This document shows, one piece after another, positions 5,424 through 63,075 of a DNA stretch of 64,000 bases (position 1 is its first letter; every line of letters begins with the position of its first letter). Location of the stretch: contig CM077166.1 of assembly GCA_039583875.1 (NCBI GenBank), positions 83,264,564-83,328,563 of the forward strand, given 5' to 3'. Source of the DNA: Platanthera guangdongensis (taxonomy: Eukaryota; Streptophyta; Magnoliopsida; Asparagales; Orchidaceae). Under the pieces are notes generated by a model that saw only the letters and a program-made list of their open reading frames with translations, was not told the DNA's origin and did no database searches. The position numbers and the translations under genes were made by a program.

Positions 5424-5431
5424 TATATAAA
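5424..5431 (+). promoter_or_regulatory. LTR promoter TATA box, Copia-1 5' LTR
   Basis: TATATAAA in the LTR, downstream of the palindrome array; the same box occurs at 36835-36842 in the 3' LTR. It is the only good TATA candidate in the U3/R part, so transcription of the element RNA probably starts about 30 bp downstream. Confidence 0.7.
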
Positions 5432-11623: not shown

Positions 11624-12132
11624 TTTACAAAAATTAGCTAAGTAAAATAGTGTCGACACACAGAGTTGTCTGTGTCGACACATAAAAGTGGTGTCGACAT
11701 TTCAGAGAAATGGTGTCGACACATCTAGGAAGTCTGTGTCGACACTTCAGATAATTAGTGTCGACACATGTAGTGTAGGTGTCGACACATCCAAGGTGGT
11801 GTCGACACTTAGGCTTTACACAGATTTAGTCTAGTAGAGTCTCGACTAAGTGTCGAGCTAAGTGGTGTCGACACATATACAAGTGTCGACACATATATTC
11901 TGTCGACTATACTTGTGTCGACACATAGTTGTTGAGACATTATCAGTAAGTGTCGACACTTTTCAACAGTGTCGACACAATTTAAGTATTTTGACGCGCC
12001 TTTTCATCTTCGATTCTAGAAAGGTATAAATAGGATTTCGTCATTGTTTGTCGACACACTCACCAAAGTTTCGAGACCAAACTTATGTGTCGACATCTCT
12101 CTTCTCTAAATTCAAAATTTCTTCAAACCCTA
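11624..12132 (+). promoter_or_regulatory. pol-ORF3 spacer of Copia-1: palindrome array plus TATA box
   Basis: The non-coding spacer between pol and the third ORF carries about 14 GTGTCGACAC copies or close variants (from about 11649 to 11980), the same word as in the LTR. TATAAATA follows at 12025-12032, 108 bp before the ORF3 ATG (12133). The same arrangement occurs in Copia-3 (24613-25124). It looks like an internal promoter built like the LTR promoter. That it is active is inference. Confidence 0.75.
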
Positions 12133-14697: not shown

Positions 14698-14700
14698 ATT

Positions 14701-24612: not shown

Positions 24613-25124
24613 TAGGGTTGAAGAATTCGAACTGAGAGATGAGAGGTGTCGACACAGAAGTTTTGGTTTCGAAACTTTTGAAAGCGTGTCGACAAACTAA
24701 TGCAAAACCCTATTTATACCTTTCTACTTTTGAAGATGAAAAGGCGGGCATCCAACTTAAATTGTGTCGACACTGGCAATAAGTGTCGACACTGACTTAT
24801 AATGTCTCGACACATATGTGTCGACACAAGTTTAGTCAACAGATAATATGTGTCGACACTTGTTTATGTGTCGACACCACTTAACTCGACACATAGTCGA
24901 GACTTTACTTAGATAATTCTGAGTAAACACTATGTGTCGACATCACCGTGGTTGTGTCGACACCAACTTGTCATGTTTCGATACTAATATTCTGAAGTGT
25001 CGACACAAACTTTCTAGATGTGTCGACACCTTTTCCCTGAAGTGTCGACACCTACTATCTGTGTCGACACAGAAATCTCTGTGTGTCGACACCTTTTTAC
25101 TTAGCCAATTGCAATACTATAAAC
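24613..25124 (-). promoter_or_regulatory. pol-ORF3 spacer of Copia-3: palindrome array plus TATA box
   Basis: About 14 GTGTCGACAC words or close variants from about 24645 to 25095, and TATAAATA on the minus strand at 24711-24718, 106 bp before the ORF3 ATG at 24612. The layout and spacing match those of Copia-1 (11624-12132), although the two copies have diverged, so the arrangement belongs to the family. It is probably an internal promoter for ORF3. Confidence 0.75.
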
Positions 25125-28100
25125 TTACTCTAAGTTTATCATTCCTAGTTCAATCTTAAACCTATTGAACTTAGCTTCTTCTAGGGGCTTATTATACATA
25201 TCAGCTAGTTGTTCATCTGTTTTAACATATTCAAGTAAAATATCTTCTCTTTCATATGCTCCCTAAGAAAATGATATTTAATTTCAATATGTTTTGTTCT
25301 ACTATGGGATACAGGGATATTAGCTATTGAAATAGCACTTGTAGAATCACAAAAGATTGGAGTTCTACTTACCTGAATTCCATAGTCCTCTAGCTGATGT
25401 TGTATCCACAGAAGTTGAGCACAACAACTTCCTGCAGCCACATACTCTGATTCTGCAGTGGAAATAGCTACACTTGTTTGCTTTTTGCTACTCCAAGAAA
25501 TCAGTCTTCCACCTAGGAATTGACAGGTTCCAGTAGTGCTTTTTTTATCTTCTTTGCATCCTGCAAAGTCTGCATCTGAATAACCTGTTAGATCAAAATC
25601 CCCATTCCTAGGGTACCAGAGGCCTAGATAAGGAGTGCCCTTTAGATATCTCAATATTCTTTTGATTGCAGTCAAATGAGACTCTTTAGGGTAGGCTTGA
25701 TACCTAGCACAGACACATGTAGCATACATGATATCTGGTCTACTTGCAGTCAAGTATAATACGGAGCCAACTATCCCTCTATACAAGGTTTCATCTACAG
25801 GTTTCCCTGCATCATCCTTGCTAAGAGACATACTTGACCCCATAGGAGTCTTCATGGTGCTGGATGAATCCATACCATACTTCCTTATGAGTTCTACGGT
25901 AAACTTGGACTGGCATATGGATAAACCACTTTCAGTCTGTCTTACTTGGAGGCCCAAGAAGAACTTTAGCTCTCCCATACTACTCAACTCAAATTGACCT
26001 TGCATAAGCTTTGCAAACGTTTTGCAAAGGCTACTTTCAGTAGACCCAAATATAATGTCATCTACATATATTTGGACTAGTATTACTTTGCCTCTAGATT
26101 CCCTAAGGAATAGAGTCTTATCTATTTTTCCCCTTGTGAACTTATTCTCAATGAGGAAACTAGACAGGGTTTCATACCAAGCCCTAGGGGCTTGCTTTAA
26201 CTCATATAAAGCTTTCCTAAGTCTATAGACATGATTAGGTAGAGTTGAATCAACAAAACCTGAGGGCTGTTCCACATAGACTTCCTTTTTAAGATTACCA
26301 TTTAGAAATGCTGAATTGACATCCATTTGATAAACTTTGAATCCTTGAAAAGTTGCATAGGCCAGGAACATCCTTATGGCTTCCAGTCTGGCTACTGGAG
26401 CAAAGGTTTGATCAAAATCAATACCTTCTTCCTGCCTATATCCTTTAGCAACTAGTCTTGCTTTGTTCTTAATGATGACTCCTTGTTCATCCATCTTGTT
26501 CATATAGATCCACTTGGTTCCAATTATATTGTGGTCTTTAGGTTTAGGAACAAGCTCCCAGACCTTGCATCTCTTGAATTGATTGAGTTCTTCTTGCATA
26601 GCCTCAATCCAAAGAGGGTCTTTGATGGCTTCTTCAAACTTCTTAGGTTCAACTTGGGATAGAAAGCTGGTGTAGACTACTGCATTCAGGTTTCTGCTCC
26701 TTGTTTGTACCCCTTGTCTTGGATCTCCAATAATCTATTCTACTGGATGATCTCTAAGATGCCTATTGGCTGGAGGCATCCTGACTTCTGGTTGAACCTC
26801 TTCAGTTTCATCATCCTGCTGTACTCCTTGTACTTCTTCTGCATTTGGTACATGTAGTACTCCCCCTGGACAACAGCCACTGTCTTCTACTTGCTGTCTT
26901 GTAGTAGATTCTTCTTCTAGAGTGAGCTTGTCCATCTTCTTTGTTAAACCTGTGGGGCTGCATACACTAGTAGACAACTCATTGTTAATAAGTTTAGTCT
27001 CATCAAATACTATATATACAGTTTCTTCTACAACTTGAGTAGACAAGTTGTAGACTCTATAAGCCTTACTATTGTTACTGTACCCAACAAAAATTCCCGC
27101 TTGGGAATTGGCAGCAAACTTAGTCAAGTAAGACTTTCCATTGTTAAGTATGAAGCACTTACAACCAAAGATCCTGAAGTAGGATAGGTTTGGTTTCCTG
27201 CCTTTCACAACCTCATAGGGGGTCTTGTTGAGGTTTTTAGTGATGGTAGCCCTATTTATAACATGGCATGCAGTGTTAACTACTTCAGCCCAGAAATATT
27301 CTGGCAGTGATTTATCACTTAATAGGGTCCTACCTGCCTCAATCAAGGTTCTATTCTTCCTCTCAGCAATGCCATTTTGCTGAGGTGTTCTTGGTGAAGA
27401 AAACTCTTGAAATATCCCAAAGTCTTCACATAGTTTTGCCATACTCTCAGACTGAAATTCAGTACCATGGTCACTTCTAATCTTGACCACTGTACTGTCT
27501 AGTTCATTCTGAATTTGCTTGACAAAGCTATAGAAGACATTAGGTGTTTCAGATTTCTGTCTTAAGAAGAACACCCAGGAAAACCTTGAGTAGTCATCTA
27601 CAACTACAAAGGTATAGACCTTCCTACCTAGGCTGTGAACTGGCATTGGACCAAAGAGATCCATATGCAAGAGGTATAAACACCTCACAGCATCTTTGTT
27701 TTCTATGCTTCTAAAGGTGGATCTAGTCTGCTTGCCCTTTTGACAACCTGAGCAAATACCATCTTTGACACACTTAACTTGAGGACCATTCCTCACTAAC
27801 TCTTTGCTAAAGAGTTTGGCAATTGTCTTGTAATTTAGATGAGCTAGCCTCTTGTGCCATTTGACATAATGAGAGACTTTCTCATCTGCTACAAGACACA
27901 CTTGAGAACCATTGGTCTCACATAGAATGTCTAGGCAGTAGACATTCCTCTTCCTATAACCTGTCAAAATGATCTCTTGATCACTTGACCTCTTGATATG
28001 ACAACCATTTTTCACAAATGAGATGTCATACCCTACATCACTTAATTGACTTATACATATTAGGTTGTGTTTCAACCCTTTAACATAAGCCACTTGAGTA

Positions 28101-30444: not shown

Positions 30445-32520
30445 TGAAAGATATAGTACCTAAACACCTAGAGGGGGGGGGGGGTGAATAGGTGATCAAA
30501 TTCTTTTTAACTTTTTATAGCAGCAATCAGTTAATATTACAGAATTCTAACTATTTTATCACAACAATCACACAGCATACACAACAAATCACAATCACAG
30601 CAGACACGGAGTTTTATAGTGGTTCCCCAAGCTTTGGGTACATCCACTTTCCCCCTTCGCCTATCTAGCAGTGTACTAGATTCGGCCAAACTCCTCCACT
30701 GTCTCAGAACCCAAAACAGGCTCCTACACCTCAGGCCCAAGGCCCTACAACTCAGCTTTTCACAAAGCCTACACTCAGCCACAAAGGCCTACACTCAGCC
30801 ATAAAGGCCTACACTCAGCCTCCAAGGCCTACACTCAGCCACCAAGGCCTACACTCAGAGATTTAACTCTCCTACCCTCAGCCTTTATAATTGCAGGCTT
30901 ACAATCTCAGATCCCTAAAGATCGTACAAGTTATAATGAATACAAAATGTATAAACTCAACAACTTAGATGAAAGAGAGATAAGTTGTGAGATTCTTGAT
31001 GAGTTCTTGGAAGAACTCAGCTGAAATCAATCTGACTTGGCTTTTCTTCAAAGCTTCTTGAAAGTAGAACACAATAAGACTGATTTATCTGCAGTTGATC
31101 CTTGATCTCTGCTTCTTAAGATTCAGACCAATCTGAATTCTTCTTCTCAGCTGGGTTCCAACAGCTGATTTCTTGGATGGAGCTCTCTTTCTCCAACTAC
31201 TTAGATCTTCACTTGAAAGCTAGATCTTCTTGTGTGTTTCTCTTGTGAATGATCACTTGAACCACTTCATCAATCCCTTGATCAATCTCTTCTGTAGACA
31301 ACATAAGCCTATTTATAGGCCTTCTTCATGGTAACCGGCTGGTCCGGTTCATAACTGAATTCTGACAACTCTGACAGGTGCTGTAGAACGGCTGGAATGG
31401 CAGCTGTCAAGTCATCCAGTCAGTTCTTGAAATAACTGTAACTGTCTGTAAGTGTCGAGACTTTCTGTCTTTAAGTGTCGACACTTATAGACCAAGTGTC
31501 GACACATGTTGTCTAAGTGTCGACACTAGCCTACAAGGTGTCGACACTAGCCTACAAGGTGTCGACACAACTCCTTGTGTTGTAGATTTTGTATCTCAAC
31601 ACTACTTCTTCTTCATGTGTCGACACTGAAATTGAGTGTCGACACAAGTACTTGTTCTTCAGAATTTTGCTGAATTCTTCTAAGTGTCGACACAACACCT
31701 TTGTGTCGACACATCTTCATGTGTTGTATCTGTCAAGTGTCGACACTGCTTCTTAGTGTCGACACATGTCTTCAGTGTTGATACTTGTTGAGTGTCGACA
31801 CATTGCTCTGGGTGTCGACACTTTCTTCTTCAGTCGAGACTCTGGCTGTGTGTCGACACATTCCCTTAGTGTCGACACTTGTACTTAGAATATTTTTGAA
31901 ATTTGTTGTTCTTTGCTTAGTGTCGACACATGTCTTTGTGTCGACACTTTCTTCAAGTGTTGAGTCTTCAGCTAAGTGTCGACACATTGTTCTGGGTGTC
32001 GACACTTACTTCCAGTGTTGACTCTTCTGCTAAGTGTTGACTCTTCTGTTGAGTGTCGACACATTGTTCTGGGTGTCGACACTTGTACTTAGTCTCTGCA
32101 AACTTTTGCTGAGTGTCGACACAGCCTCCAAGTGTCGACACTTTCTGATGTAGACACTGTTTTTCTGGGTGTCGACACAACTGCTAAGTGTCGACACAGC
32201 TTCACTGTCTTTTCTTAACTAAGTGTCGACACAGCTCCTTGTGTCGACACTTTCTGTCTGGTGTCGACTCAGCATCCCTGGTGTCGACACAATGACTCCA
32301 AGTGTCGACACTGCTTGCCTGGGTGTCGACACAAGTCTTCTTAAGTGTCGACACTTTCCCTCTGGGTGTTGACACATGGACTTAGAAACTTTTACTTCTT
32401 TCCTGCAAATACTTAACCTGCACATATAAACTCAAAAGACATCAAATACATTTTGATGTATATCATTGAGTTGGGTGAGGCTTCTTCAAATCAGGTACAT
32501 TTAGACCAATGTACCCAACA
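30445..32520 (-). repeat. 5' LTR of Copia-3
   Basis: A 2076-bp LTR nearly identical to 19431-21484. Most of the length difference is a 20-bp direct duplication (ACTAGCCTACAAGGTGTCGA unit) at about 31524-31563. TATA box at 31309-31318 (minus CTATAAATAGG); palindrome array 31455-32375. Confidence 0.93.
31455..32375. repeat. GTGTCGACAC palindrome array in Copia-3 5' LTR
   Basis: Same array as at 20435-21345 with one extra palindrome from a 20-bp duplication near 31540. In minus orientation it lies upstream of the TATA box at 31309-31318, so it is in the U3. Confidence 0.93.
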
Positions 32521-33298
32521 GTATCGATCCCAAGCGAATTTACATCGGAGGGAGTATAACTTCCAAGTTGGCGATCTTATTTTAGTGCGCCTTATTCCCA
32601 CGCAGCTGCCTTCTGGCACCGTTAAGAAGTTGGCACCAAAGCGAGCCGTCCCGTTTCGAATTATTAAGAGGCTAGGAGATAACGCGTTTGTCTTGGATTT
32701 GCCGACGGATTGGGGTATTTTACCCATTTTCAATGTTTCGGATTTAACGCCGTATGTTTCCATTCCAACTGAATTGACTTCTACGCCTTCTTTTTCCCCC
32801 AATATTTCTTCCTCCATAAATGCCTCTTCTGGGTTGGTGAGTGGTAGTTCCGTGAGTCATTCTTCCATTGCACCTACAGGCCTAGCGCTGGGTGGTAAGT
32901 CTTCTACTTTGCTTCCACATGCTGATATGTTTCCTAGATTTCCCCGTACATTTCTTGTCCCAGCTCAGGTACTTGCAGATGGCTACACTTCTCCTGCTGA
33001 TGGCAGCCATCGCCGCTTCCTCGTTCGTTGGCGTGATCGTCCGCCCTCCGACGACTCCTGGGTTATTGAGTCGGATCTCTTTCGCTTGGATGAGGACCTC
33101 CTCCGCCGCTACCTTGCAGCCCACTCATTGGTGTTGAGTGACTTTAAGGGGGGGAGGATTGATGCCGGCTCGTCTCCCATCCCCTTGCCCGTTGATGCTA
33201 AGTGTGCCCGTGATCAAGTTGCTTGGATGATGATCAAGTTGCTCGTGACCAAGTTGATGCGGCGCAACATAAAGATGCTCGACGACCTTCTACCGTGA
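32521..33298 (+). pseudogene. pol C-terminus of Gypsy-2: integrase tail and chromodomain-like segment
   Basis: Continues the frame broken at 19430; after the TSD it reads YRSQANLHRREYNFQVGDLI, the integrase C-terminal domain, then FRIIKRLGDNAFVLDLP, a Ser-rich linker, and a chromodomain-like segment at about 32969-33121 (RFLVRWRDRPPSDDSWV, DEDLLRRYLAAHS). The frame runs through the polypurine tract into the 3' LTR. There a one-base deletion relative to the 5' LTR (near 33223) changes it and it stops at 33298. The segment would guide integration to chromatin if functional; the chromodomain call rests on motif resemblance only. Confidence 0.8.
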
Positions 33299-35832: not shown

Positions 35833-37719
35833 TGTTTGGTATATTGGAATATATGTACCTGATTTGAAGAAGCCTCACCCTACTCAATGATATACATCAA
35901 GGTGTATTTGATGTGCTTTGAGTTTATTTGTGCAGGTTAAGTAACTGCAGGTTTGCAGGAAAAGTTTTTAAGTCCATGTGTCGACACCCAGAAGAAAAGT
36001 GTCAACACTTAAGAAGGCTTGTGTCGACACCTAGAGAAGCAGTGTCGACACTTGGAGTAATTGTGTCGACACTAGGAATGCAGAGTCGACACCAAAAGGA
36101 AAGTGTCGACACATACAGGCAGTGTCGACACACAATGAAGAAATGTCTAAAGAATCAATGTCGACACCCGGAGGAACTTTGTCGACATCAAAAGTGTCGA
36201 CACTAGCAGGCTGTGTCGACACTCAGCAAAACTTCAACAAAGTTCAAGTTCATGTGTCGACACTAGGAGGCTGTGTCGACACTCAACAAACTTCAACAAA
36301 GTTTAAGTACAAGTGTCGACACAAAGGAGATGTGTCGACACTCAGCAAAGTCTCAACACATGAAGAATGTGTCGACACAAAGGAGATGTGTCGACACTCA
36401 GCAAAAGTTTCAACACAGAAGGCATGTGTCGACACAAAGAAGATGTGTCGACACTTAGCAAGTTTTAACACAAGAAGATGTGTCGACACTTTGCAGAAAT
36501 CAACTAAGTATTGAAGAAGAAGGACTTGTGTCGACACACAGGATCTATGTCGACACATTCTGAAGAAGCAGTGTCGAGAAGCAGTTTCTACAACACAAGG
36601 AGTTGTGTCGACACCTTGAAGGCTAGTTTCGACACTTAGTCTACTTATGTCGACACTTGGTCTATTTATGTCGACACATAAAGACTATCTGTCTCGACAC
36701 TTTCAGACAGTGACAGAGATTTCAAGAAGTGACTGGATGACTTGACAGCTGCCATTTCAACCGGTCAACTGCTACTGTCAGAGCTGTCAGAAGTTTGTTA
36801 GAAACCGTATCAGCCAGTCACCATGAAGAAAGCTTATATAAAGGCTTATACCTTCAACAGAAGAAGATCGAATGAAGCAATCAATGAAGTGAGAAACAAC
36901 AAACAAGAAGAAGACCTTCAAGTGAAGATCTAATTAGTTGGAGAGAGAAATCTCTTTCTAAGAAGACAGCTATTGAACCAGGCTGCCAAGAAAGTTTCAG
37001 ATTGAGATCTGATTCTCAAGTCAGCAGTTGATTGAAGATCATCTGCATAGAGATACAACCCTACTGTATTCTAATTCAAGAAGCTTTGAAGAAAGCCAAG
37101 GGAGGTTGATCTCTGCAAAGTTCTTTCAAGAACTCATCAAGAAGCCAGTCAACTCAACTTTCTCAATCAGAGTTGTGGTTATTAATCCTTGTACTCTTTA
37201 TTTTCTTTAGGATCCTAAGGGATCTGAGTTGTAAGCCTATATTTATAAAGGCTGAGTGGTAGGGCTTGTGTGCCTGAGTGTAGGAGATACATTTCTCTAA
37301 GTGTAGGCCTTGTTGAAGGCTGAGTGTAGGCCTTGTTGAAGGCTGAGTGTAGGTCTTGGTGAAGACAGAGTGGTAGGGCTTTGTGCCTGAGTTGTAGGAG
37401 TGGGATCACTCTGAGTTGTAGGAACCTATTTGGGGTTCTGAGCTCCAAGATCTGTGGATCTGAGAAGTAGTGGAGAAGTTAGGCCGAATCTAGTACACTA
37501 CTAGATAGGCAAAGGGGGAAAGTGGATGTACCCAGACATTGGGGAACCACTATAAAAGCTGTGTGTAATTTATTCTGTGATTGCTGTGTTATATGTGCTG
37601 AATTACTGTAGAGAATTGCATAAACAAGTCTAATAATTCAGTGTTTCTGCCTTAAAAGTTAAAAAGATTAAGTGCACCTATTCACCCCCCCTCTAGGTGT
37701 TTAGGCACTAGTTCTTTCA
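35833..37719 (+). repeat. 3' LTR of Copia-1
   Basis: An 1887-bp LTR matching 4385-6319, with palindrome array 35975-36705, TATA box 36835-36842, and the end TTTAGGCACTAGTTCTTTCA. Followed by TSD aaatc (37720-37724) and Gypsy-1 protease/RT coding sequence. Confidence 0.93.
35975..36705. repeat. GTGTCGACAC palindrome array in Copia-1 3' LTR
   Basis: About 20 perfect copies plus variants, aligned with 4529-5290 but with missing or altered units, for example a shortened stretch near 36160-36200. This shows copy-number drift after insertion. Confidence 0.93.
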
Positions 37720-38340
37720 AAATCTATCTCCCGTTGAGGATGGGCTCTAGGAAGATTTGCGGGGAACACATCAGGGTACTCAGCTACCACTGAAATACTA
37801 TCCAACGAAGGCTTTGGCTTTGCAACCTCCACTAGTGTAAAGAACAGCTCTGCACCAGCATGAACCACCTTTACCACCTGAAGAGTAGACATCAATGTCT
37901 TGCTCGACCCTTTTAAGCCCGTAAAAGTCGTCTCACGACTTGCTCCCAACTTGACTTCCTTGCGACCGCAATCAATATATGCTTGCTGCTCTGAGAGGTA
38001 GTCCATGCCAAATATAACGTCGAACTCCACCAACAGTAGTAACGACGCTTGTAGATCGAACTCTTGATTCCCAATGCGAATCTTAACACCGCAGACTTTA
38101 TCCGCGCGCATCGAACACCCATTCGGTAACAACACATACAACTTATCCTTTGCCATCGAAGAAGCTACTCCGATGCGCGATATGAATCCTTCGTATAAGA
38201 AGGAGTGTGAAGCTCCCGTATCAAAGAGTGCTCTCGCGGAAAACTCACAAATCAAAACAAATCCTAAACAAGAAGTGGTAAGGTAGCATACGCATAACAA
38301 GTATTTAAAGAAACCTAACTTGCTACGAATTAAACCGTAC
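37720..38340 (-). pseudogene. protease and start of RT of Gypsy-1
   Basis: Minus-strand reading: retroviral-type aspartic protease with RALFDTGASHSFL (active-site DTG kept), then VLLPNGCSM and FDVIFGMDYLSEQQ, then the linker typical of the RT N-terminus (YPDVFPANLP...REIDF). It stops at the Copia-1 insertion; the frame resumes at 4384 with TIELVSCAKPVSRSPYRLAP. Upstream it joins gag after a short region. The protease would cut the polyprotein. Confidence 0.88.
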
Positions 38341-39711: not shown

Positions 39712-41231
39712 TGTAACACCCCCTATCCATCGCATAGCATATAGCAGTAGGTCCGGCCGGGGCCCGACGCCATATACCATAGACAGACCGGGTGGTTACT
39801 CAATGGAAACCATCCAACCATTGCAACGTCCTACACAGAGTCATTCTAGCGGAAGCAGTTTTATAAGTTGTAATTAAAAGAACACAGCACAAATAGCATG
39901 AATATACACTAAACAATCCCCAAAGGAATGAAGTACAAATACACAAGTACTGGCCTTAAGGCCTTACAAATTGTTTCATTCAAAATTACATGTTTTCAAA
40001 CCATGGCACACAGGCCGACCACACATGAATAAAGAAAACACTCAAAATTAGGCCTTCGAGGGCAGGCAAGCAACTTGGGCTTTATCCCGCTATTTACCGC
40101 TCGGCTCCGCAGCACCTGCAAGCACAATCCACCGCAACAGTGGCAAATCAAAGCAACCGTCAGCCATGCTGACCAAATTATAACGATCCCACCCCCAATT
40201 CGGGGCGGCGATGATCCTTCCCTGCACTTTATTAGCATAACCAATTAGTATATAAATATATTGCATCACAGGTGTTGGCATATGCGGCCACATGCCCCGT
40301 GCTCTCAGGGCACATTCTAGGTGAACTGGTCAATGTCACGTCAATTTAAGCCATAGACACCCCGGTCTAACCACCGCCACTTTGACTGCCACACTATGAG
40401 CAATTTGTCTTCCCGGCATGGGTCACGTCATTTTAAGCCATAGACCACTGAATACCCTCATCTACGCCAACAACAAGTACCACGTACCTTTAGGTCGCTT
40501 TAACCGAACGACATAGAATGTGTACGGTTCCATCTAATCCATGCTCACATCGTAACGACAATTTAAGCCATATGCGCGGGTCAAACTTCTCCCGAGTACC
40601 GTTTCCGTTACACACTTCACATAACCCGGTTATGTTCAAGTTGGCTCTCAGGCCTCCAAGTTGGCAGAATCACGTATCTGCCCAGTTTTCCGGGGGCACC
40701 TTGGAGTTAATCCCCAAGGCTCTCTGCTGCAATCTACCTCGTAGAAAACCCGAAAAACAAACAATCACACAGAGTATTCTCCGGTCATTTATGTAATGCA
40801 ACATCACCGATCTAGACCAACTTGTCCGGGTAGGCTTCACACATCTTGCCTATATCCGTTCTCGATTACGGACTCTACACAATGGGGACTTTACATATCT
40901 ACCCGAAGGAACGCCTTAAACTCACCGCAAACTCGCGAAAGCGGGCTTCCTATGCAAAAAAGTAGATCTTTACATTCTCAAGTAGAGAATCGTTACCCTA
41001 GCGTTCTTCCTTGGCGCCATGGAAATGTAAGCGGATGAAAAGCACCGCACTCTTCTTGCCTCCGTAGATCCGAAGTCAGTTCGTGATTTGGAGCTCCGAA
41101 GCTTCGCCGGTGACCGGATCTAGGCTTCTTCTTCTTCCTTTGCTCTGCCCACTCTCTAGACTTAGAAAGAGAACCACTCAAGAGAAACGAGGGTTTTAAA
41201 GGCCCAATCCTGGGTATATCCCAGTAGGAAC
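39712..41231 (-). repeat. 5' LTR of Gypsy-1, left part (interrupted by Copia-4)
   Basis: Starts tgtaacacccc next to the primer site and continues to 41231; the last five bases ggaac are the TSD of Copia-4. Homologous to 972 to about 2440 of the Gypsy-1b LTR, including the shared blocks with CTCAGGGCACATTC and CTGCTGCAATCTACC. Confidence 0.88.
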
Positions 41232-42315
41232 TGTTGGGTTTCTCTATGAGGATGGCACAACATTTGTGCACGTAGCGGAAGAATAAATCATCAAGAAAAC
41301 CCAAAAGAAATGGGATCGGGCCATGATAATTGAATCAAGAAGTTAACATACAACTATGCAAAATTACCTCAATGGCGTTGAGTCACAACTCAACGGTGAT
41401 GCTCCAAACTTCGTCTTCTTGCTAGTGGCGAGTTCTACGTGGAATAATATCCACGTCTCTGCAGAAATCCACACGAGCGGGAGAACGCCGATCTATCCGT
41501 CGCACGGATTATCGGGAAGGAGAAAGACCGCACCTTGCTATTCCACGGACTACTAGGTCCGCGCCAGGAAAAGCAACACCAGCGACAGTCGCCGGAGAGT
41601 AGGAGGTCGACGGAACGAACACGGCGGTGGAACCCTTCCGTCGGCGGGATTCGGGATCGGCGGAACGAAGGGCGGAACGGCTTCCGTCAATTTCGATCGG
41701 CTGCCAAAAGCATTAATCCCGAAAACCCTAAGTGTCCCTTTTATACCGAAGGTATAAATATACCTAGGAATTTTGCTATCCGCAGACCACCCAGAACTAG
41801 GGTTCCAGAATCGGCGAGAATCATCAAGCAGATTCAGTGAGAATCAATCGGCGAGAATCAGAATCGGCGAGAAACACAATCGGCGAGAATCACCCGGATC
41901 GGCGAGAATTAGACTACAATACTCGACGATTCACGCCGAACGTTGGTCGACAATTCACGCCGATCGTGGGTCGACGATACACATCGATCGGCGAGAATCA
42001 GAGAACTAATTCTCGACGATTCTCGTCGATCGGCGAGAATCAGAGAACTAATTCTCGACGATTCTCGTCGATTCTCATCGACCCTCGGTCGACTATTCTT
42101 ACCAGTCCTTGAAGGCAGCATTTGCCCAAACCGATGATCCTTTAAGGCAACACTTTGCCCATAACCCCATTCAGGTCGGTGATTGGTAACCTTTACCAAC
42201 ACAATCAATCATCCAACTTCTCCACATCTCTTATGTGCGACCCTGCAGGCTCATATCGCGTTGCCAGTGAGATTACATGTTTGATCACTTCCAGATCACC
42301 ATGGTAACTCCAACA
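41232..42315 (-). repeat. 3' LTR of Copia-4
   Basis: A 1084-bp LTR. Minus-strand TATA box TATAAAAGG at 41737-41745, with the TCGA repeat region (41795-42095) directly upstream of it in transcription sense. Confidence 0.95.
41795..42095. repeat. TCGA/CGGCGAGAATC repeat cluster in Copia-4 3' LTR
   Basis: Repeated ATCGGCGAGAATC, CTCGACGATTC and GTCGATCGGC words that pair as inverted repeats (GAGAATC / GATTCTC, TCGACGA / TCGTCGA). Includes two tandem copies of a 42-bp unit at about 41993-42076; the 5' LTR has three. Confidence 0.9.
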
Positions 42316-43281
42316 GACTCCCACTTGATCTCGAAAGTATCAAAGCAAAAACCTCACAGACAATGAGCGGCATCTAGCAATGCATCATTGCTCCCCAAGC
42401 AATAAGAGTTTATAACTCATAAGCTTTTATGACCAATGTATTAGCGTTGTCTTTGTCCCTTTGTCCCTTACATCCGGAAAGAACTAGAGGCATGGATCGT
42501 GTCACCCTCGTAATAGCTCAATCCAAGTTTCTTGATCCAGGAAGGACTTTCAGAGAATGGTGAGTCCAATATCACATATTGACTCAACCAAGCATGGCCA
42601 TGCATTTCTCAGTCCAGTTCCATCAAGGGCCCATGGATGCAACTCCTGTCATACAGGAGGACAAATCCCATATCTGCTCACACACAAACACCCAAATGAT
42701 TCGTAACATGCCCAACAACCACCCTTATCATCAACCTTTCTCAAGGAAGACTTTAGATGGCATCAAAGCACGCTCTTCCTCACTTGATGAATGCTGTGAC
42801 TTCAGGTCAAAGGACCACAACACCATTGTCAATTGAGACCTACTCGTGACACGATTGGATGACAATCCACAGAGCAGTCTCAGGTTGGGTATGTCCAGTA
42901 CAACTTGTTCACTAACAAGTACCCACATGATGACTTGATATCACAATATCATGACCTGTGAGAACCGGTCATCAGTCAACGCACGTGCTAGCCTTCATGT
43001 ACCATCATCACCCTTAGCTTCTATAATGATACTCGACCAGGGACCTTTAAGAATGAAGCTCCAAATAAATCATAGGCTCTGACATTCAAGTCACGTACTT
43101 GATGTCCCATGGAAGCGAACATTCTAAGGGTATCTATTATGTTTACATTTATCTATCATATAGAAAAGCTCATAATAAAAGAACTTGCCATTAATTGTAA
43201 AAGAAAAACTAGGTACAATGTTCATCATATGAACAAATGGCCAACAAAATACAAGTTTACATGCAATCCACAAGATTCTCA
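42316..43281 (-). other. 3' untranslated region of Copia-4
   Basis: About 970 bp between the pol stop and the polypurine tract. I see no ORF with family resemblance and no repeats here. Confidence 0.7.
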
Positions 43282-47240: not shown

Positions 47241-48221
47241 GGAATTCTACAAGAATTTATGCAGAATAAAATCAGTACCAAAATCTCAAATATAATTTAT
47301 TTTAATTTGAACTTCAATTAAAACACTCCCACTATTTTATTCGAAATGATATCCCTCACTAACAATTCGGAGAGTTCATGCGAGCTACTCTCTTAGTGGA
47401 CAAGATCTGTATTTCACCAACACAATGAGTCAGCTTTGGCTTTCCTCTCACGATGCGGTTTTTTAGGTAGGCAACGCTTGCCAATTGCATCCTCATGCAA
47501 TTCTTGTATGGTTGGTGAATAACTCCTTATTTGCATCCATCATATGGTGCATGCCAACCCAATGCCTCTAGGCACTCAACCTTTGAGGTCACCTAGTTAA
47601 GCTGGACCCGATGTCGACAGTGGGATATCACAATTATCCGCTCGCACCCTTAACAAGATAGATTAATGCACCTTGCTTTGGCAAGCCCACACTTCATCGA
47701 TCGAGGCAGGAAGAGTGTCATCCATCGGAAGGCATCCGAACACTTAATATTTGATGAAGGGATTTTAATTATAGGTTAACAATTAACCATGATCAACATT
47801 TGATGAATGTGCACATCCAAAGAAAAGCAATTCTCCTAAACCACATGCATCCCTTATGTGCACATCCTGACACCATCAACAATTGATAGAAGGAAGGGAT
47901 AAATCTGAACATCCGGAAATTTCCAAATCCTCAGATTTACATGCATTGGACAAAAGCAAAGACAACTCAACTTAAAGCAGTAGACAAGCTCATCTCTCTA
48001 TGTTGGATTCAAAATCCAAAACAAACTCGAGGGATGGTTACTGCTAAGGAGACTACAATTTCTAACAATTAGAAATTTCCACGAAATTCCAGAAGTTCTT
48101 GGCGGGGTACCAAGACTAAATCTAGACATTTAGAACACTTCTAAATCCCTAGGTTTACACACACTGGAATAACAAAACTTCCAATACAACAATCATGGCC
48201 AGAACCTGGCTCTGATACCAC
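47241..48221 (-). other. untranslated leader of Copia-4
   Basis: About 980 bp between the primer site (48211-48220, TGGTATCAGA on minus) and the gag ATG. AT-rich, without coding resemblance; unusually long for a copia leader. Confidence 0.75.
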
Positions 48222-49347
48222 TGTTGGGTTTCTCTATGAGGATGGCACAACATTTGTGCACGCAGCGGAAGAATAAAACATCAAGAAAACCCAAAAGAAA
48301 TGGGATAGGGCCATGATAATTGAATCAAGAAGTTTACATACAACTATGCAAAATTACCTCAATGGCGTTGAGTCACAACTCAACGGTGATGCTCCAAACT
48401 TCGTCTTCTTGCTAGTGGCGAGTTCTACGTGGAATAATATCCACGTCTCTGCAGAAATCCACACGAGCGGGAGAACGCCGATCTATCCGTCGCACGGATT
48501 ATCGGGAAGGAGAAAGACCGCACCTTGCTATTCGACAGACTGCTAGGTCCGCGCCAGGAAAAGCAACACCAGCGACAGTCGCCGGAGAGGAGGAGGTCGA
48601 CAGAGCGAACACGGCGGCGGAACCCTTCCGTCGGCGGGATTCGGGATCGGCAGAACGAAGGGTGGAACGGCTTCCGTCAATTTCGATCGGCTGCCAAAAG
48701 CATTAATCCCGAAAACCCTAAGTGTCCCTTTTATACCGAAGGCATAAATAGACCTAGGAATTTCGCTATCTGCAGACCACCCAGAACTAGGGTTCCAGAA
48801 TCGGCGAGAATCACCAAGCAGATTCGGTGAGAATCAATCCGCGAGAATCAGAATCAGCGTGAAACACAATCGGCGAGAATCACCCGGTTCGGCGAGAATC
48901 AGAGTACAATACTCGACGATTCACGCCGAACGCGGGTCGATGATTCACGCCGATCATGGGTCGATAATACACGTCGATCGGCGAGAATCAGAGAACTAAT
49001 TCTCGACGATTCTCGTCGATCGGCGAGAATCAGAGAACTAATTCTCGACGATTCTCGTCGATCGGCGAGAATCAGAGAACTAATTCTCGACGATTCTCAT
49101 CGATTCTCGTCGACCCTCGGTCGACTATTCTTACCAGTCCTTCAAGGCAACATTTGCCCAAACCGATGATCCTTTAAGGCAACACTTTGCCCATAACACC
49201 ATTCAGGTCGGTGATTGGTAACCTTTACCAACACAATCAATCATCCAACTTCTCCACATCTCTTATGTGCGACCCTGCAGGCTCATATCGCGTTGACAGT
49301 GAGATTACATGTTTGATCACTTCCAGATCACCATGGTAACTCCAACA
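48222..49347 (-). repeat. 5' LTR of Copia-4
   Basis: A 1126-bp LTR with TATA box at 48727-48735 (minus TATAAAAGG) and a TCGA repeat cluster at about 48795-49125 with three tandem 42-bp units. Otherwise almost identical to 41232-42315. Confidence 0.95.
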
Positions 49348-49352
49348 GGAAC

Positions 49353-50038
49353 AACCCCTAACCGTCAGATCCCAAAATAAGGAAACGAATGGCTATGATT
49401 CGTAGCTGAAAAGTAAAACCTGGGCCGAACACGACCTGCGACATGCCCGTGTCAAACCTCATTCGCCGTCAAAATCAACGCGTTACGAAACTTACACGGG
49501 TCCCGACATGCCTGTGTTTAACCTGACACGCCCGTGTACAAACTGACACGGCCGTATGGCTGGCCATGTGCCCCCATTGACACAGCCCCAAAAACAACCC
49601 GAGACTCACACGGGTCTAGGACACGCCCGTTTCCTATTTGACATGCCCGTGTCAAACCCGAACACACCTGGGCTCCAGGCCATATTAACTGTCTCGACAC
49701 TTCGTCAAGCGAAGTTCGTCGACTACTCGACACGGCCTTTGACACGCCCCTGTCCTAGGCCGTGTTCCCCGTCTCGACACATCGTCGAGCGAAAATGTCG
49801 ACTCCCTGGGCCGATCGTGGATACGGGCTCGACACGCCCTGAGACACGCCCGTGTCTCAGGCCATGTTCCCTGCCTCGACACATCGTCGAACAAAAATGT
49901 TGACTCCCCGGACCGATCGTCGAAACGGGATTGACATGCCCTGGGACATGCCCGTATCCCAGGCCGAGTGCCCCCTGCCAAATACCAAATTTGGCCCAAA
50001 ACGCCTCCCGTCGCTCTTTTGAGTTTCGGGGCATTACA
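49353..50038 (-). repeat. 5' LTR of Gypsy-1, right part with CACG and TCGA repeats
   Basis: Continues the LTR after Copia-4 to its end GGGGCATTACA (50038). Contains GACACGCCCGTGTC-type palindromes (49425-49980) and, unlike the Gypsy-1b LTR, two to three imperfect 80-100 bp units with CTCGACACATCGTCGAGCG and ATGTCGACTC at about 49690-49960. Minus orientation makes this the U3. Confidence 0.87.
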
Positions 50039-57205: not shown

Positions 57206-57554
57206 AGATAATAAATAAAAAACACATAAAAAATGAAAACTCTAAAATCAAAAAAACTTTTTATGAAACAAATAAATCGAATATTCCATTCTTAACTCTT
57301 TTTGCTCTCTAAAAATTTAGTTGTGAGTTTATTTATTAGCGAATTTCATTAATTCTTTGTTTACTATTCATTTATTAAATAGAGATTGATAGATTTATAT
57401 ATCTGGGGTTTAGTTTTAAATAATTTTTTATGCTTTGTTCTTAATATAGGGGACTTGTTTTAGTCACTACTTCTAATTTATCTAAAAAAGAGGCATGTGT
57501 ATTATGTTTTGTTCGATCCCTAGTTGGATTTGGGCTAGGTTCACTAAACTAGGA
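57206..57554. other. AT-rich non-coding stretch after the Athila fragment
   Basis: About 350 bp, AT-rich, with no coding resemblance. It probably is the 3' untranslated region of the Athila element brought next to protease by an internal deletion. The exact origin is unknown. Confidence 0.4.
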
Positions 57555-57698
57555 TGTTTGACCCAACATGTATAGCCAGGGTCATGTCTGTGTCCTAGAG
57601 TTTAGGCCATGTCCTTAGAATCAACAATGCATGGACCAGCCATCTACAGACTGCAAAAGACTCAAGACTTAGAGAAATTTCAAAGACTCAGGAAAATG

Positions 57699-58190
57699 AG
57701 TTCGACGTTCGTCGAACTCAGCTCGACGAAAGTCGTGCTCAGCTCGACGAACTCAGAAAAAATTCTCCGAGCTGAGCTCGATGATCTTGGATCTCAGGTC
57801 GACGATCTTCGGATACTATACTTCAACATTCCAAGTCTAGAATTCCTTTCTCTGAACTCCAGTCGACGAAGTTAGATTATTAGCTCGACGAACTTAGTTC
57901 TCAAGTCGATGATTTCTAGATGCTCTACTTCAACATTCTAGTCCAGAAACATCTCAATATTCTAACTCCAGAAACTGAACTCCAATCGACGAACTTAGAA
58001 TCTCAGCTCGACGATCTTGATGCACAGAATTGGCAAGGTTCTTGAGAAAGCAGTTAGAAGTTCTCAGGTCGACGATCTTGGATCTCAGATCGACGAACAA
58101 CAATTATCTAGTCGACGAACATAACTTCTCAGCTCGACAAACTCTGTACCCAGGTCGACGAATTCTGTTCTTTGCTCGACGATTTCTGTG
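57699..58190. repeat. CTCGACGA / GTCGACGA repeat cluster in Copia-5 LTR
   Basis: About 15 copies of (G/A)(C/G)TCGACGA(A/T)CT at 15-45 bp spacing, alternating GCTCGACGA and GGTCGACGA forms, plus an inverted pair TTCGACGTTCGTCGAA at 57700-57716. Ends about 250 bp upstream of the TATA box. Confidence 0.9.
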
Positions 58191-58439
58191 CAGATCCAAA
58201 CTTGGATATTTCTTTCGCTCTGTCCTTATTTTATTGCAATAATTCCTGAATAATCAATGCTTAATATTCCCTGAATATTACCATTAGAAGCAGCATTGAT
58301 TATGGTTTTCATCAGGATTATTACTTGCCGCTTTTCAATGGGATAGTTGGGGAAATCAATCAATGCAGACATTCTCAAGGCCGTCAACAATCAATGCTGG
58401 AAGGAATTCAAAAATTCAGAAGGAAGATTTCACAGAAAA

Positions 58440-58447
58440 TATAAAAG
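58440..58447 (+). promoter_or_regulatory. LTR TATA box of Copia-5
   Basis: TATAAAAG downstream of the repeat cluster; the only strong TATA box in the LTR. Confidence 0.65.
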
Positions 58448-59415
58448 GATTTTTCTTCTTCTTTCTCTAGATATACACACATACGGGAAATAGCAGTGAG
58501 ACAGTAAGCAGAGCACAAGAGATACATAAAGCAATCATACAGCAACACAGTCAAGAAAATAAGAAGCCATAGACCAGACCAAAGAAACAATAGTAAGAAG
58601 AAGAAGAAGAAGAAGAACATCAATTAAAATAAAGAGTCTTCTTCATTCTTCATTTCAGGATTCTTCAAGGACAACAAAACTTATCAGTCAAGAAGTTCCG
58701 GGATATCTTCTGGTCAAGGCTAAATATTGAAGACCTACTCACCCTGAAGCAAAGCTTAAGACTTCCTGAGATCAATATCTCAGGGGGATCTTTGTTAACA
58801 TGAAAGATCCACTAAGTCTTCTCAGTTGTATTTGAGAAAGAGAAGACACCATTACTCTCTCACCCCATCACTGTAAAAGGGTTCTTTAGCTCCCTTCAAA
58901 AGTTATTCCTAGTTGCAAGTCTCCTGATCAAAAAACTTGGGATTGTTTTTTGAGCACCTGACCAAAAGCTCATTGGTGGCAGTCACCTGATCAAAACCTG
59001 ATAGTGGATTCCTATCAGGGTGGTAGAAGAGTGGATGTACCCAGGTTGTGGAACCACTATAAAATTCTTGTGTTGTCTGGTTGCCATCTTTTTCTTGTGT
59101 TCTTGTTGTTCCTGTGATTAGTTAGTTTAATATTTGTAGTGCCTGTGATAGATTAGGTTATCTTAGTTTGCACTATTACTTATAGTAAATATTGGTATCA
59201 AACAACTGCTATACTCTGAAGTTTTAATTAACAGTAAAAAGCTTTAAAGTTTTAAGGATACTCTATTCACGCCCCCTCTAGAGTATATCAGATCTAACCC
59301 TCACTTTCAATTGGTATCAGAGCAGGTACCTTTGGTTGTATAAGCTAACCCTTGAACCATAAGATCCTTTGTTAGATCTGATTTCTTTTATTTCTATTAG
59401 GATTATATTCACAGC

Positions 59416-60174
59416 ATGGCACAGAATAAAGATTATGCAAGCACCAGAACTTCAGTGTGCAACTTAAATAAGTTTGCCATCTAGAAGGAAAGAATAAAAC
59501 TTTATATGAATTCTATAGATGAGGACATCTACAATTCTATCTTGACAGGTCCTCCCCAACCATCTACATATACAGCAACCTCAAGCACTCATGCAGTTCC
59601 ACCACCTGAGTGGACTGATGCTCAGAAGAAAGCCAAGGTTGCTGATGCTAAATCCATGAACATTCTGGCCCAAACAATGTCTGATGATATTTTCTATAAA
59701 GTGGCTGAATGCACTTCAGCCAAGGCCATTTGGGACTCTCTCAACCAAATGGTGGTTGGCTCTACTAATAAAAGGAAAGACAGAAGATCAAACCTCATAT
59801 CCCAATATAAGAACTTCAAAAAGGAGGAAGCAGAATCTGTTGCAGACATGTACAACAGACTTAGCTCAATAATCAATGAGCTGAAGACTTTGGATAAGGA
59901 CATCACCCTTACTGAAGTCAATGATAAAATCCTCATGTGCTTCCCAAGCTCATGTGATTCAAGGATCTGGCCAATCAAGGATGTCAGGAGCTTAAATGAG
60001 ATTTCCACAGAATCTCTATTGGGAAAGCTCAAGTCCTATGAGCACCTTATAAAGTCCAGAGAAGCAGCTGAACAAAGAACTCCTCCACCAGCAAGAAAGG
60101 CGCACAACATGGCATTCAAGGCTGCTGAAGAGACTGAAGCTTCAACAGTAAATGAAGAATTGATGAGTCTCTGA
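59416..60174 (+). pseudogene. gag of Copia-5, partial
   Basis: ATG 59416 (MAQNKDYASTRTS), a stop near 59482, then open to 60174. Copia Gag (UBN2-like) blocks: KERIKLYMNSIDEDIYNSIL, AKAIWDSLNQMVVGS, ESVADMYNRLSSIINELKTL, LLGKLKSYEH. The reading frame ends at the first three bases of the inserted Athila-like LTR (TGATGG), so zinc knuckle and pol are lost. TSD candidate is 60167-60171 (gtctc). Confidence 0.87.
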
Positions 60175-61149
60175 TGGGTCCGCGAACAGACTCTTACTGT
60201 GGTTGGTTCGGTGAGTCGATCGCCGCGGGCTTGCTCGGGTAGGCAAGTGCACCTATCGCAAGTAGCACTCGATATTCGGGGGAATACCGAGGTCGTATTG
60301 TTCTCGGGGTCGTGTTGACTATTCTTACTCCTCCGGGAGGACTATTATTTTACTAAAAGAAAGGTGGATTTTTTTGCTTAATAAAAGACGAAAAAGCAAA
60401 GGAGCGAAAAAAAAAACGATTTAGAAAATATTCGATGAAGGGTTAACGCTCGGCATCGAATTGGATAAGACTAAAATAATTTTTAATAATTATAGGACTT
60501 GGTTTTCAAATTAATAATAAGGCAACTTGGCCGTGGAGGTTCCACAAATGTGAGCTCACCTAGCTATAGGGATATCGCTCACCTAAACGTTAAGACTATT
60601 CGACCGAACGTTAGTCCGACGAAGGATTCCTCTTAACGCCCGCTTTACGCTAAGAACCCCGCTATTGGGTGGGGAACCCAATCCGGTAGAATTACGCTTG
60701 TCCTCTATCGAGGGTATGCACGCAACTCTATTTACCCAGGGGTGATCGGTCCATATGCACGTCCTCTCGGCTAGCTAGCATATGGACTACGGAAATAGGG
60801 CCCACACATCGATATGTGGTCCTACGCGTCGTAAACCCGGGGTAAACCTTAAGTGCTTAAATTAAAATGAAAATAAAGAGCTTTAATTATTATAAATCAT
60901 TTTAAATGTCCCAATGTTGTTCGATGCCGAGGCTAATAGTGATTAGCCACACATCGGTATGGGGACGGCTTATAATTTAGTGAGGCGCAAGTTCGAAATT
61001 AAACACTAAACGATTATAAGAAGGGGACATAAGAAAAATAATAAACATTTAGAAAACTGAAAAATTAGCTAAAACAAGAACTCACGCACACTCCAAATTA
61101 TAAATTAAACAGGAACTAAGTTACACATGAAAGAAATTTGCATATTTAA

Positions 61150-61370
61150 AATTTGCGAGTCCCACTCAAACGAGTGGGGGCGGTAAATAAAAGCTGAAAA
61201 TTGCAAGTCCTACTCAAACGAGTAGGACTGAAATGAAAGCGAGTCCTACTCAAATGAGTAGGAGAAAATAAATGCGATTACAGGGCAATAAAGTCCGGCC
61301 ATTAAACTCAAGTGAGTAGGCGAAAAAATAAAGAAAGAAAAATTATAAATCCTACTCAAATGAGTAGGCG
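61150..61370. repeat. CCTACTCAAATGAGTAGG palindrome cluster
   Basis: Four full copies of an 18-bp palindrome with arms CCTACTC/GAGTAGG around AAAT or AAAC (one with CCCACTC/GAGTGGG, showing compensated change in both arms) and one half copy, spaced about 40-80 bp. Located downstream of the TATA box, so within the transcribed part of the LTR. Confidence 0.85.
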
Positions 61371-62325
61371 GGAAATAAAGTCACACAGACACATACACTC
61401 CATAAGAATTTCAAGTAAGCAATAAAGCTAACACCTACACTCACACACTCTACAAAATTTGAATCAAAGCATAAAAGTTATACACCTACACTCACACACT
61501 CTACCTAATTTGAACAAAGCATTAAAAATTATACTCATACACTCACACACACAACATGAAAATTTAAGAAGAACAAAAGAAAGTCTATTCTCATACACTC
61601 ACACACACTAATAACAAAGAAAAATCAAAGTTGCTTATAAATGAAAATAACAAGATTTCTACTCCTAAAACTTACCCAAAACACATACAAAGAACAAATA
61701 AAAAGAGAATGAGCAAAAAGTTTTACAAAATAAAGTCAAAATCAAAGGTGCTCAAAAATTAAAACTAAAACTTTTTCATTCTTAAGAATTTATAAAAGTG
61801 ATAAAAAAGGTGAAGAGAAAATGAAAAGAACAAAAGATGTTTTACAATCCTAAAAGAAAAACTAAGTAAAAAAGGAACAAAATCACTTTTCAAACCTCAT
61901 TTATAAATTCATAAGAATGAAATCCTTTTACTTTCAAGAAAAAAAAACATGGTGAAAAAGAGGAAAACCTATCATACCTAAGCATGAAAACAAGTTAAAA
62001 ATATGTAAAGTAAATAAATTACACTCATACACACACACACACACATTTCATAAATGAAGAACAATGATTAAACCAAGGATAAAAAGGAGAAGGAAAGTCG
62101 ACACAAGTGTTCATTCCAAAGCCAAATTTGAAGAGAAAGTCTAACATTTTTTGATTAAATGAAACTATTACAAGCTATTACAAGAGCTAAAGCTAAAGCA
62201 AAAACAAACATGAAAGAAAAGAGGGAGAAATCTCATTACATAGCTTTAGAAATCACGGATGCAGCCCACAAAAAGACACTAAAATGACCCAAAAATCTGA
62301 ACCCTTGGACCTTACAGAACTGGGC

Positions 62326-62333
62326 AATTTATA
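62326..62333 (-). promoter_or_regulatory. LTR TATA box of the Athila-like element
   Basis: Minus-strand CTATAAATT, 12 bp after the palindromic U3 cluster in transcription sense. Best TATA candidate in the LTR. Confidence 0.6.
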
Positions 62334-62344
62334 GGCAAAAAATT

Positions 62345-62900
62345 CTAAGTACACGCCCTAGGTCACGGGCGTGTAGGGGGGGCGTGACAGTACTATTCAC
62401 AAAGGCGGCCGGCGATTGGACAGGAAAGTTGACTTCGGGCTGAGTTCGCGGTAGTCATGCCCCGGGTCACGGGCGTGACTCTGGGCGTGTCGGGGAGGTA
62501 GAACCGGGCGCGGGTTGCGCCGAAAGTCTTCGGCAGCATCTTGTCGGGCTAGCTGGAAAGGTCACGCCCCAGGTCCCGGGCGTGATGCTGGGCGTGTCAG
62601 TTGGTGTCGACACTCGACGAATGTCGAGCGGAAAGTGTCGAGTCGAAATCGTCGAGCGGAAATTGAGTCACGCCCCAGGTCACGGGCGTGACGCTGGGCG
62701 TGACTGTTGGTGTCGACACTCGACGATCGTCGAGATGAATTCGTCGAGTGGAGTAAACACGGGCTTGGGTCACGCCCCGTGTCGGGTGACACGGGCGTGT
62801 CGCCAGGCGTGTCAAGCTTTTCTCTTCAGAAATTTGCAATTTCACGGGAAATGCAATGTCACGGCCCGGTCACGGGCGTGACCAAATTGTCACGGGCGTG
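62345..62900. repeat. GTCACGGGCGTGAC and GTGTCGACACTCGACGA repeats in the Athila-like U3
   Basis: About ten CACGCCC/CACGGGCGTGAC words plus two modules GTGTCGACACTCGACGA (62604 and 62711) followed by TCGTCGAG and AATGTCGAG inverted partners. The cluster lies directly upstream (minus sense) of TATA 62326-62333. It combines the CACG word of the Gypsy-1 LTR and the TCGA word of Copia-1/3. Confidence 0.9.
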
Positions 62901-63075
62901 TACTGCCCAATTTTGGCAGATTTTGAAATTTTTCTGCAAAATAAAATAAAACAAGTTAGAAGAAAATTTACAAGAATAGGAGCATTTTATTGAACAAAAA
63001 TAAGTAAAAACGACGAAAATAAATGAAAATGACTAAATTAATGTACACAAAAATACGTATATTTACAATTCATCA

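Follow-up and report, generated by a model that had tools for sequence, protein, structure and literature searches.

The window analysed here, a 64,000-nucleotide stretch of the Platanthera guangdongensis genome (C20:83264564-83328563), is a nest of long terminal repeat (LTR) retrotransposons: Copia-1, Copia-3, Copia-4, Copia-5, an Athila-type gypsy element that sits nested inside Copia-5, and others. Many of their LTRs carry arrays of short CpG-centred words. Palindrome arrays at the promoter are a known Sirevirus feature, but the limit to Sireviruses fails in this genome: the classic copia element Copia-4, two non-Athila gypsy families and the Athila-type gypsy also have arrays and share Sirevirus words. 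The words are in an excess that is not due to chance, and in the Sirevirus group SIRE-A they are kept nearly invariant through transposition and drift after insertion. We give about an even chance to the reading that the arrays are platforms of binding sites for sequence-specific factors that drive U3, and that the same words were recruited independently, most simply through common host factors.

The genome comprises 4.25 Gb in 274 contigs, with C1-C20 measuring 146-308 Mb each. Loci outside the window are labelled L plus a number (L001-L004 were excluded from counts), and the names SIRE-A, SIRE-B and SIRE-C were coined in this analysis. Within the window the words are concentrated in LTRs. 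The 10-bp word GTGTCGACAC occurs 129 times, 105 times in LTRs and 24 times in two linkers between pol and the second open reading frame (ORF2), with none in the other 45.3 kb, and TGTCGACA occurs 143 times (113 in LTRs, 29 in the two linkers and 1 elsewhere); neither word occurs reversed. For TCGACGA/TCGTCGA 37/41 copies are within LTRs, for GATTCTCG/CGAGAATC 17/17, and for CACGGGCGTG/CACGCCCGTG there are 8 within and 3 outside. The LTRs concerned are as follows.

4385..6320 (+), 5' LTR of Copia-1 (SIRE-A), with 26 TGTCGACA at 4531-5259 and a TATA box at 5424.
35833..37720 (+), 3' LTR of Copia-1, with 24 TGTCGACA and the polypurine tract (PPT) AGGGGGAG immediately upstream.
30445..32521 (-), 5' LTR of Copia-3 (SIRE-A), with 31 TGTCGACA.
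19431..21484 (-), 3' LTR of Copia-3, with 30 TGTCGACA and the PPT AGGGGGAG immediately upstream.
41230..42316 (-), LTR of Copia-4, with an array of TTCTCG/CGAGAA and TCGACGA/TCGTCGA at ~41840-42120.
48220..49348 (-), second LTR of Copia-4, with the same array.
49505..49969 (-), gypsy LTR fragment, 78% to the L009 LTR, with 2 CACGCCCGTG and 4 TCGACGA/TCGTCGA.
57510..59311 (+), LTR of Copia-5, with a TCGACGA array at 57699-58190, a TATA box at 58440, a polyC signal at 59265 and the primer-binding site (PBS) at 59312.
60172..63074 (-), Athila-like 3' LTR, 97.1% to its partner LTR (L025 5146-8030), with a word array at 62364-62900 and a TATA box at 62327.

These arrays are present where the initial annotation had placed them (Copia-1/3, Copia-4, Copia-5 at 57699-58190 and the Athila-like LTR). 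Its statement that they lie directly upstream of a TATA box is true of some LTRs and not of others: measured start to start, the last word is 40 bp from the next TATAWA in the Athila LTR, 77 bp in both Copia-4 LTRs, 165-166 bp in the four SIRE-A LTRs and 264 bp in Copia-5. The description as palindromes does not suit the Copia-5 LTR word, which is directional; 12/13 copies point one way (12 TCGACGA, 1 TCGTCGA), as do 6/6 and 15/15 copies in the Copia-5 kin of L006 and L034. There is only a single TCGACGA and no array in the gypsy LTR at 13632-14700, so arrays are not universal among LTR families. The gypsy element at 13632-34222 has a 7-bp tandem array of TCAAATT, in ~73 copies at 14753-15259, between its LTR and gag-pol.

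Copia-1 (+) and Copia-3 (-) belong to one Sirevirus group, SIRE-A. The PPT begins 10 bp upstream of the 3' LTR in both (L007 has AGGAGGAG), the 3' end of the LTR carries a polyC-rich signal, and a repeated-motif array lies upstream of the LTR TATA box and again upstream of the env-like ORF. The core of the motif is TCGA and not CGG-CCG, the core of 12/13 published motifs; the published Sirevirus Tnd-1 is likewise described as having no CGG-CCG (PMC2829016). Copia-5 is also of Sirevirus type, with its polyC signal and a reverse transcriptase (RT) 63.3% identical to that of SIRE-A, measured on L035, which was equated with the Copia-5 insertion by position. A search for its PPT gave a single AGGGGG in L035, at 4409, the 3' LTR of Copia-5 not being delimited. 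Thus the families that the initial annotation called unrelated include two, Copia-1/3 and Copia-5, that are both Sirevirus-type. Copia-4 (minus strand) is a classic copia element with no AGGGGGAG in its last 600 bp and no Sirevirus polyC signal in its LTRs. Because its RT is only 34.7% identical to that of SIRE-A, words are shared between copia lineages too, not just between superfamilies. In L009 and L034/L037 there are matches to RVT_1 and/or RNase H and integrase domains of gypsy type; these elements are putative chromoviruses, although no chromodomain was matched. The element running from 60172 to L025 8030 has gypsy pol domains, the PBS TGGCGCCGTTGCCG and a pol signature, and is of the Athila type.

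The word TGTCGACA is carried by SIRE-A (in the window and in L007, L014 and L021) and by the Athila-type LTR (2 copies). It is seen again outside the window in a non-Athila gypsy: the LTR starting at L034 6268, as judged from an interrupted host reading frame, a PBS at L037 1043 and gag after it, opens with 19 copies of this Copia-1/3 word, and its gag-pol is in L037. The sharing of words by different superfamilies, as the initial annotation had it, is real. A block of six TGTCGACA also lies inside an LTR of Copia-5 kin (L034 1625-1790). TCGACGA is found in Copia-5 and its kin (L006, L034), Copia-4, L009, the gypsy fragment 49505-49969 and Athila, and CACGGGCGTG in the last three of these. The Athila-like 3' LTR has 6 CACGGGCGTG, 2 GTGTCGACAC (62604, 62710) and 5 TCGACGA/TCGTCGA. 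Copia-4 combines GATTCTCG/CGAGAATC with TCGACGA/TCGTCGA, and the former pair is also carried by SIRE-B (L013/L036), a Sirevirus-type family without ORF2. CTCGAG is the word of SIRE-C (L013 3460-3790, L017 9130-9890, L032 and L033). The SIRE-C LTRs of L013 and L017 are ~76-78% identical downstream of the array, yet their words differ in the flanks (TTCTCGAGAA vs TACTCGAGTA).

The lineages share words but no other detectable U3 sequence. Among 17 array regions, between-lineage matches numbered 12 pairs in the raw sequences and 0 once the words were masked, and within-lineage matches 12 and 8, the masked comparison being weak inside arrays, where the spacers left are ~10 bp. The absence of U3 similarity between lineages after masking favours convergence over recent U3 exchange, and so favours convergent capture among the two explanations that the initial annotation had offered.

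Some further word arrays were seen at the sampled loci. Related sequences at L008 1600-2300 and L017 6400-7100 have arrays of CCGTGCG/CGCACGG. Arrays of ACTCAACGC/GCGTTGAGT lie in a repeat at L023 3665-4750 and L034 136-1134 (86% between loci), with Copia-5 kin directly after it in L034. At L008 5990-6870 a GTCCGC/GCGGAC array follows a Met-type PBS and precedes a likely gag start, which puts it in the leader and not in U3.

The excess of the words is genome-wide. There are 2,076,908 copies of GTGTCGACAC against 2,228 of its reversal. Copies exactly 21 bp apart (GTGTCGACAC-N11-GTGTCGACAC) number 294,920, and the reversed counterpart 0. Counts are 263,017 against 7,045 reversed for TACTCGAGTA and, with both strands summed, 976,009 against 173,200 for CTCGACGA. 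At ~1 copy of GTGTCGACAC per 2 kb, these sites would be strong competitors for any protein that binds the word. We also sampled the genome at fixed positions, taking 10 kb at 10.0 Mb of each of C1-C20 (20 stretches, 200 kb, 400 blocks). In this sample GTGTCGACAC occurs 67 times and its reversal 0 times, and it has the top over-representation among ranked 10-mers.

A scan that uses no given word, counting inverted 8-mer matches per block against 30 dinucleotide shuffles, marked 29/400 blocks at z>=6 and 22/400 at z>=10, the latter spread over 10/20 stretches. The z>=6 set includes three blocks (in L005, L010 and L022) with 0 CG pairs, which do not count as arrays of this kind, as well as L012, where a long repeat of ~112-bp tandem units containing CCGAGCTCGG extends over 3760-5907. 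CG lies within 2139/2469 inverted pairs of the z>=6 blocks, and within 666/938 once the seven TGTCGACA blocks of L007, L014 and L021 are removed. Clusters of >=4 per 400 bp were found in 3 of the 20 stretches for TGTCGACA, 4 for CTCGAG, 2 each for TCGACGA and CCGTGCG, and 1 each for CACGGGCGTG and GATTCTCG; six reversed-word controls gave 1 cluster in total (GAGCTC in L012). A mirror-word control was dropped in favour of the dinucleotide shuffles because its own background was high (47 inverted vs 22 mirror windows at >=20 pairs, and more mirror than inverted windows at lower thresholds). A further cluster of words lies in the window.

2606..2865 (no strand assigned), words ACACGGG/CCCGTGT and CACGCCCGTG clustered close to a fragment of gypsy pol (block 2501, z 11.7).

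Constraint on the words was measured in the aligned LTR array region of five SIRE-A elements (the first listed C1 places, Copia-3 and L014, which is not a random choice), with motif columns set from elements outside the compared pair. Between elements, motif sites differ at 36/2832 positions (1.3%) and other sites of the array region at 1147/8706 (13.2%). Two non-overlapping comparisons give 9/560 for the motif and 246/1714 for other sites (Fisher p 6e-6). In four within-element LTR pairs the two classes are alike, with differences at 14/1144 motif and 48/3640 other sites. The motif sites are therefore under selection, being about tenfold more constant between elements yet equal to other sites within LTR pairs, and this tenfold constraint offers a measure of which positions in the LTR are important. 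Decamers in the SIRE-A array regions are exact in 186 cases and have one mismatch in 35 and two in 31 (0, 0.2 and 2.2 in shuffled sequence). At first, CpGs of the motif seemed to be protected once inserted (11/343 motif vs 9/57 other CpGs), but the effect was gone after polarising with other elements (lost in one copy, motif 7/137 and other 0/13); it was an artefact, because newly made CpGs had inflated the control.

The words are also regularly spaced. Gaps of 18-23 bp account for 92/154 in SIRE-A (null mean 23.7), 9/16 in Copia-5 (1.8), 13/22 in L017 (3.2) and 7/10 in L013 (1.5), and further gaps lie near the double and triple of this distance. This spacing fits sites about two turns apart.

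Three Sirevirus families repeat their own word in a second array, located between pol and ORF2: SIRE-A, SIRE-C (13 CTCGAG) and Copia-5 (5 sites). In the window the features are these.

11650..12132 (+), internal array in the pol-ORF2 linker of Copia-1, with 15 TGTCGACA and TATAAATA at 12025.
12085..12870 (+), N-terminal piece of Copia-1 ORF2; the start that aligns with Copia-3 is ~48 bp inside.
24613..25204 (-), linker of Copia-3, with an internal array of 14 TGTCGACA and TATAAATA ahead of ORF2.
23905..24612 (-), N-terminal piece of Copia-3 ORF2, with a weak Transposase_32 match (21.2 bits, cut-off 45).

The array before ORF2 is probably an internal promoter in the three ORF2-bearing Sirevirus families seen. 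In 3/3 SIRE-A loci (Copia-1, Copia-3 and L007) it is followed by TATAAATA, a concrete candidate for such a promoter, and in the SIRE-C locus L032 by TATATATA; there is no TATAWA after the internal array in L035. Nine env-bearing Sireviruses are described with this layout, the internal promoter not being conclusively identified there (PMC2829016). SIRE-B has an LTR array and neither ORF2 nor an internal array, and ORF2 was not detected in Copia-4, the gypsies or Athila. As judged from their sequences, the ORF2 pieces appear unlike an envelope protein: a hydrophobic segment (Kyte-Doolittle 19-mean >=1.6) is found in none of the six, and 4/6 have basic clusters. Fold prediction was uninformative (mean pLDDT 38.9), no sequence relative was found in PDB at E<=1, and Pfam Transposase_32 is below its cut-off in ORF2.

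Two other arrangements were noted in these families. Copia-5 and a relative have TCGACGA/TCGTCGA arrays of 7 and 5 sites between their gag and pol (L025 8950-9190 and L034 4900-5060), which may lie in a coding linker. At C1:6279291-6299706, going by word positions, SIRE-C arrays are ordered LTR, internal, LTR, internal, LTR, which resembles tandem elements sharing LTRs.

In the reading that we favour, the arrays would act in cis from U3, as regulatory platforms with many sites. Each word would be the site of a sequence-specific DNA-binding factor, often a dyad suiting a dimer; copies recur at ~20-bp intervals ahead of the TATA box, and binding would raise or license transcription of the element. 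Elements that keep their sites would leave more copies, so that words would stay near-invariant through transposition as spacers drift. Several copia and gypsy lineages would have recruited the same few CpG-centred words independently, most simply through host factors that all of them can use, and in the three ORF2-bearing Sirevirus families seen the family word before ORF2 would probably serve as an internal promoter. Protein binding, activation and a host origin of the factor are what we infer here. For TGTCGACA, an auxin response factor (ARF) of the ETTIN type is a candidate only; TGTCGACA is named as a secondary motif of ETTIN/ARF3 (PMC6918188), and ARFs are described as binding repeats with a TGTC core (PMC10690724, PMC6207667), which TGTCGACA contains.

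Several observations weigh against this reading. The constraint result covers SIRE-A only, a sharp 10.5-bp helical period was looked for in the arrays and not found, and the gaps in the L034 gypsy array are mainly 13-14 and 21-22 bp. No single factor could bind all the word classes, of which there are at least five, and the homologous Sirevirus LTRs of L013 and L017 differ in word flanks; the single host factor proposed in the initial annotation is thus not supported. Such switching of words between homologous LTRs is easier to reconcile with an element-encoded factor than with a host factor that is fixed. The ARF lead fits TGTCGACA alone, since the TGTC core is absent from CTCGAG, TCGACGA, GATTCTCG and CACGGGCGTG, and the preferred ARF site is given as TGTCGG (PMC10690724).

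Could the arrays instead be neutral tandem repeats without function? Bigger tandem units are present inside them, so duplication does make copies, but a neutral origin can hardly account for words that vary about ten times less than other sites when elements are compared, and not when LTR pairs are, nor for the lack of any comparable excess or clustering of the reversed words. A role as RNA, in which the transcribed palindromes would fold and serve as small-RNA templates or in packaging, is very unlikely. The Copia-1 array does fold much better than shuffled sequence (z -10.3 over 20 shuffles), and maize Sirevirus palindrome regions are described as small-RNA hotspots (PMC10760457, PMC5311732). 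The Copia-5 array, with its directional word, folds only slightly better than shuffles (z -2.6), so RNA structure is not a common feature of the families, and a silencing template alone would be selected against rather than kept tenfold more constant. Movement of U3 modules or word blocks between families through template switching or recombination is somewhat less improbable but still unlikely. A chimeric LTR in L034 has TCGACGA x7, TGTCGACA x6 and TCGACGA x8 in succession, an order that word position lists show again at C1:5129-5740, and three word classes are mixed in the Athila LTR. The chimera speaks for exchange, which the initial annotation had suggested, but no between-lineage U3 match is left after masking, and the longer matches of the L034 block to SIRE-A arrays (70-75% over 88-186 bp) are carried by the words.

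It is doubtful, though a real possibility, that Sireviruses encode the factor themselves. ORF2 would then act in the nucleus as an activator or anti-silencer specific for the family word, which it would bind both in U3 and at the internal promoter of ORF2 itself, with ORF2-less families as free riders. This would account for the internal arrays of each family's own word, with TATAAATA after them in three SIRE-A loci and TATATATA in SIRE-C, and for word switching, and it suits ORF2 pieces that have basic clusters and no strongly hydrophobic segment. Elements with the same word as Copia-3 have RT/ORF2 identities to it of 86.2/73.6 (Copia-1) and 76.9/66.8 (L007), against 70.5/32.4 (L032) and 63.3/27.5 (L035) for those with other words; the first 121 residues of the L032 RT have 77.7 identity. 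This co-variation of word and ORF2 is suggestive, but the other-word families are also more distant by RT, and four comparisons confounded with distance cannot split age from co-variation. VANC6 is described as acting on an unrelated element that carries its motif (PMC5735166). On the other side, the SIRE-B array exists without ORF2 or an internal array, ORF2 was not detected in the array-bearing Copia-4, gypsies and Athila, the L035 internal array has no TATAWA after it, the fold model is of no use, and the Transposase_32 match is below its cut-off. More tentative still is the idea that ORF2 activates its own LTR and its own gene through arrays of the family word, that word and ORF2 change together, and that the word evolved in unrelated copia and gypsy elements as a way to exploit ORF2. 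If true, some retrotransposons of this genome would live on others in trans, in a parasite network that has about two million target sites. Arrays in elements that lack ORF2 are explained by host factors, which we favour overall over a Sirevirus-encoded factor, keeping both. What binds the arrays, and what role the plant env-like ORF2 has, are now testable.

In foamy viruses, one regulatory word set for the activator Tas lies at the LTR and at the internal promoter of the accessory gene. The arrangement here is alike in having a word set at both places; no homology is claimed, and the activator role of ORF2 is putative. The VANC/VANDAL system is alike in that short motifs are multiplied by tandem repetition in non-coding parts of transposable elements (TEs), differ between relatives and make an unrelated TE respond (PMC5735166, PMC10398659). 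VANC binding is described there from chromatin immunoprecipitation and electrophoretic mobility shift assays, whereas here ORF2 is known from sequence, the elements are LTR retrotransposons and many of the words are palindromic. Maize Sirevirus LTRs are likewise described as having a palindrome-rich cis-region, with no copia-gypsy sharing in the cited descriptions (PMC10760457, PMC5311732). Repeat arrays in cis-regions of several TE families are in print, and there is precedent for a word in two TE superfamilies, since one palindrome is reported to rank first in structured regions of maize Copia and Helitron elements alike (PMC10760457). In the open-licence literature, GTGTCGACAC occurs in 31 papers, with no plant-LTR title among the 20 listed, and TGTCGACA occurs in 2; copia-gypsy sharing of identical words, the two-million-site scale and the constraint test were not found in print. 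The closest system is that of the Sirevirus repeated motifs: palindromic CpG words in high copy, found in U3 ahead of the TATA box and, where an element bears env, also ahead of the env-like ORF (Bousios et al., 2010; PMC2829016). Those are described as Sirevirus-specific, absent from classic copia and with a CGG-CCG core in 12/13. In contrast, the words found here are centred on TCGA or CACG and are shared between lineages, and in this genome a classic copia and gypsy elements have such arrays too, with identical words.

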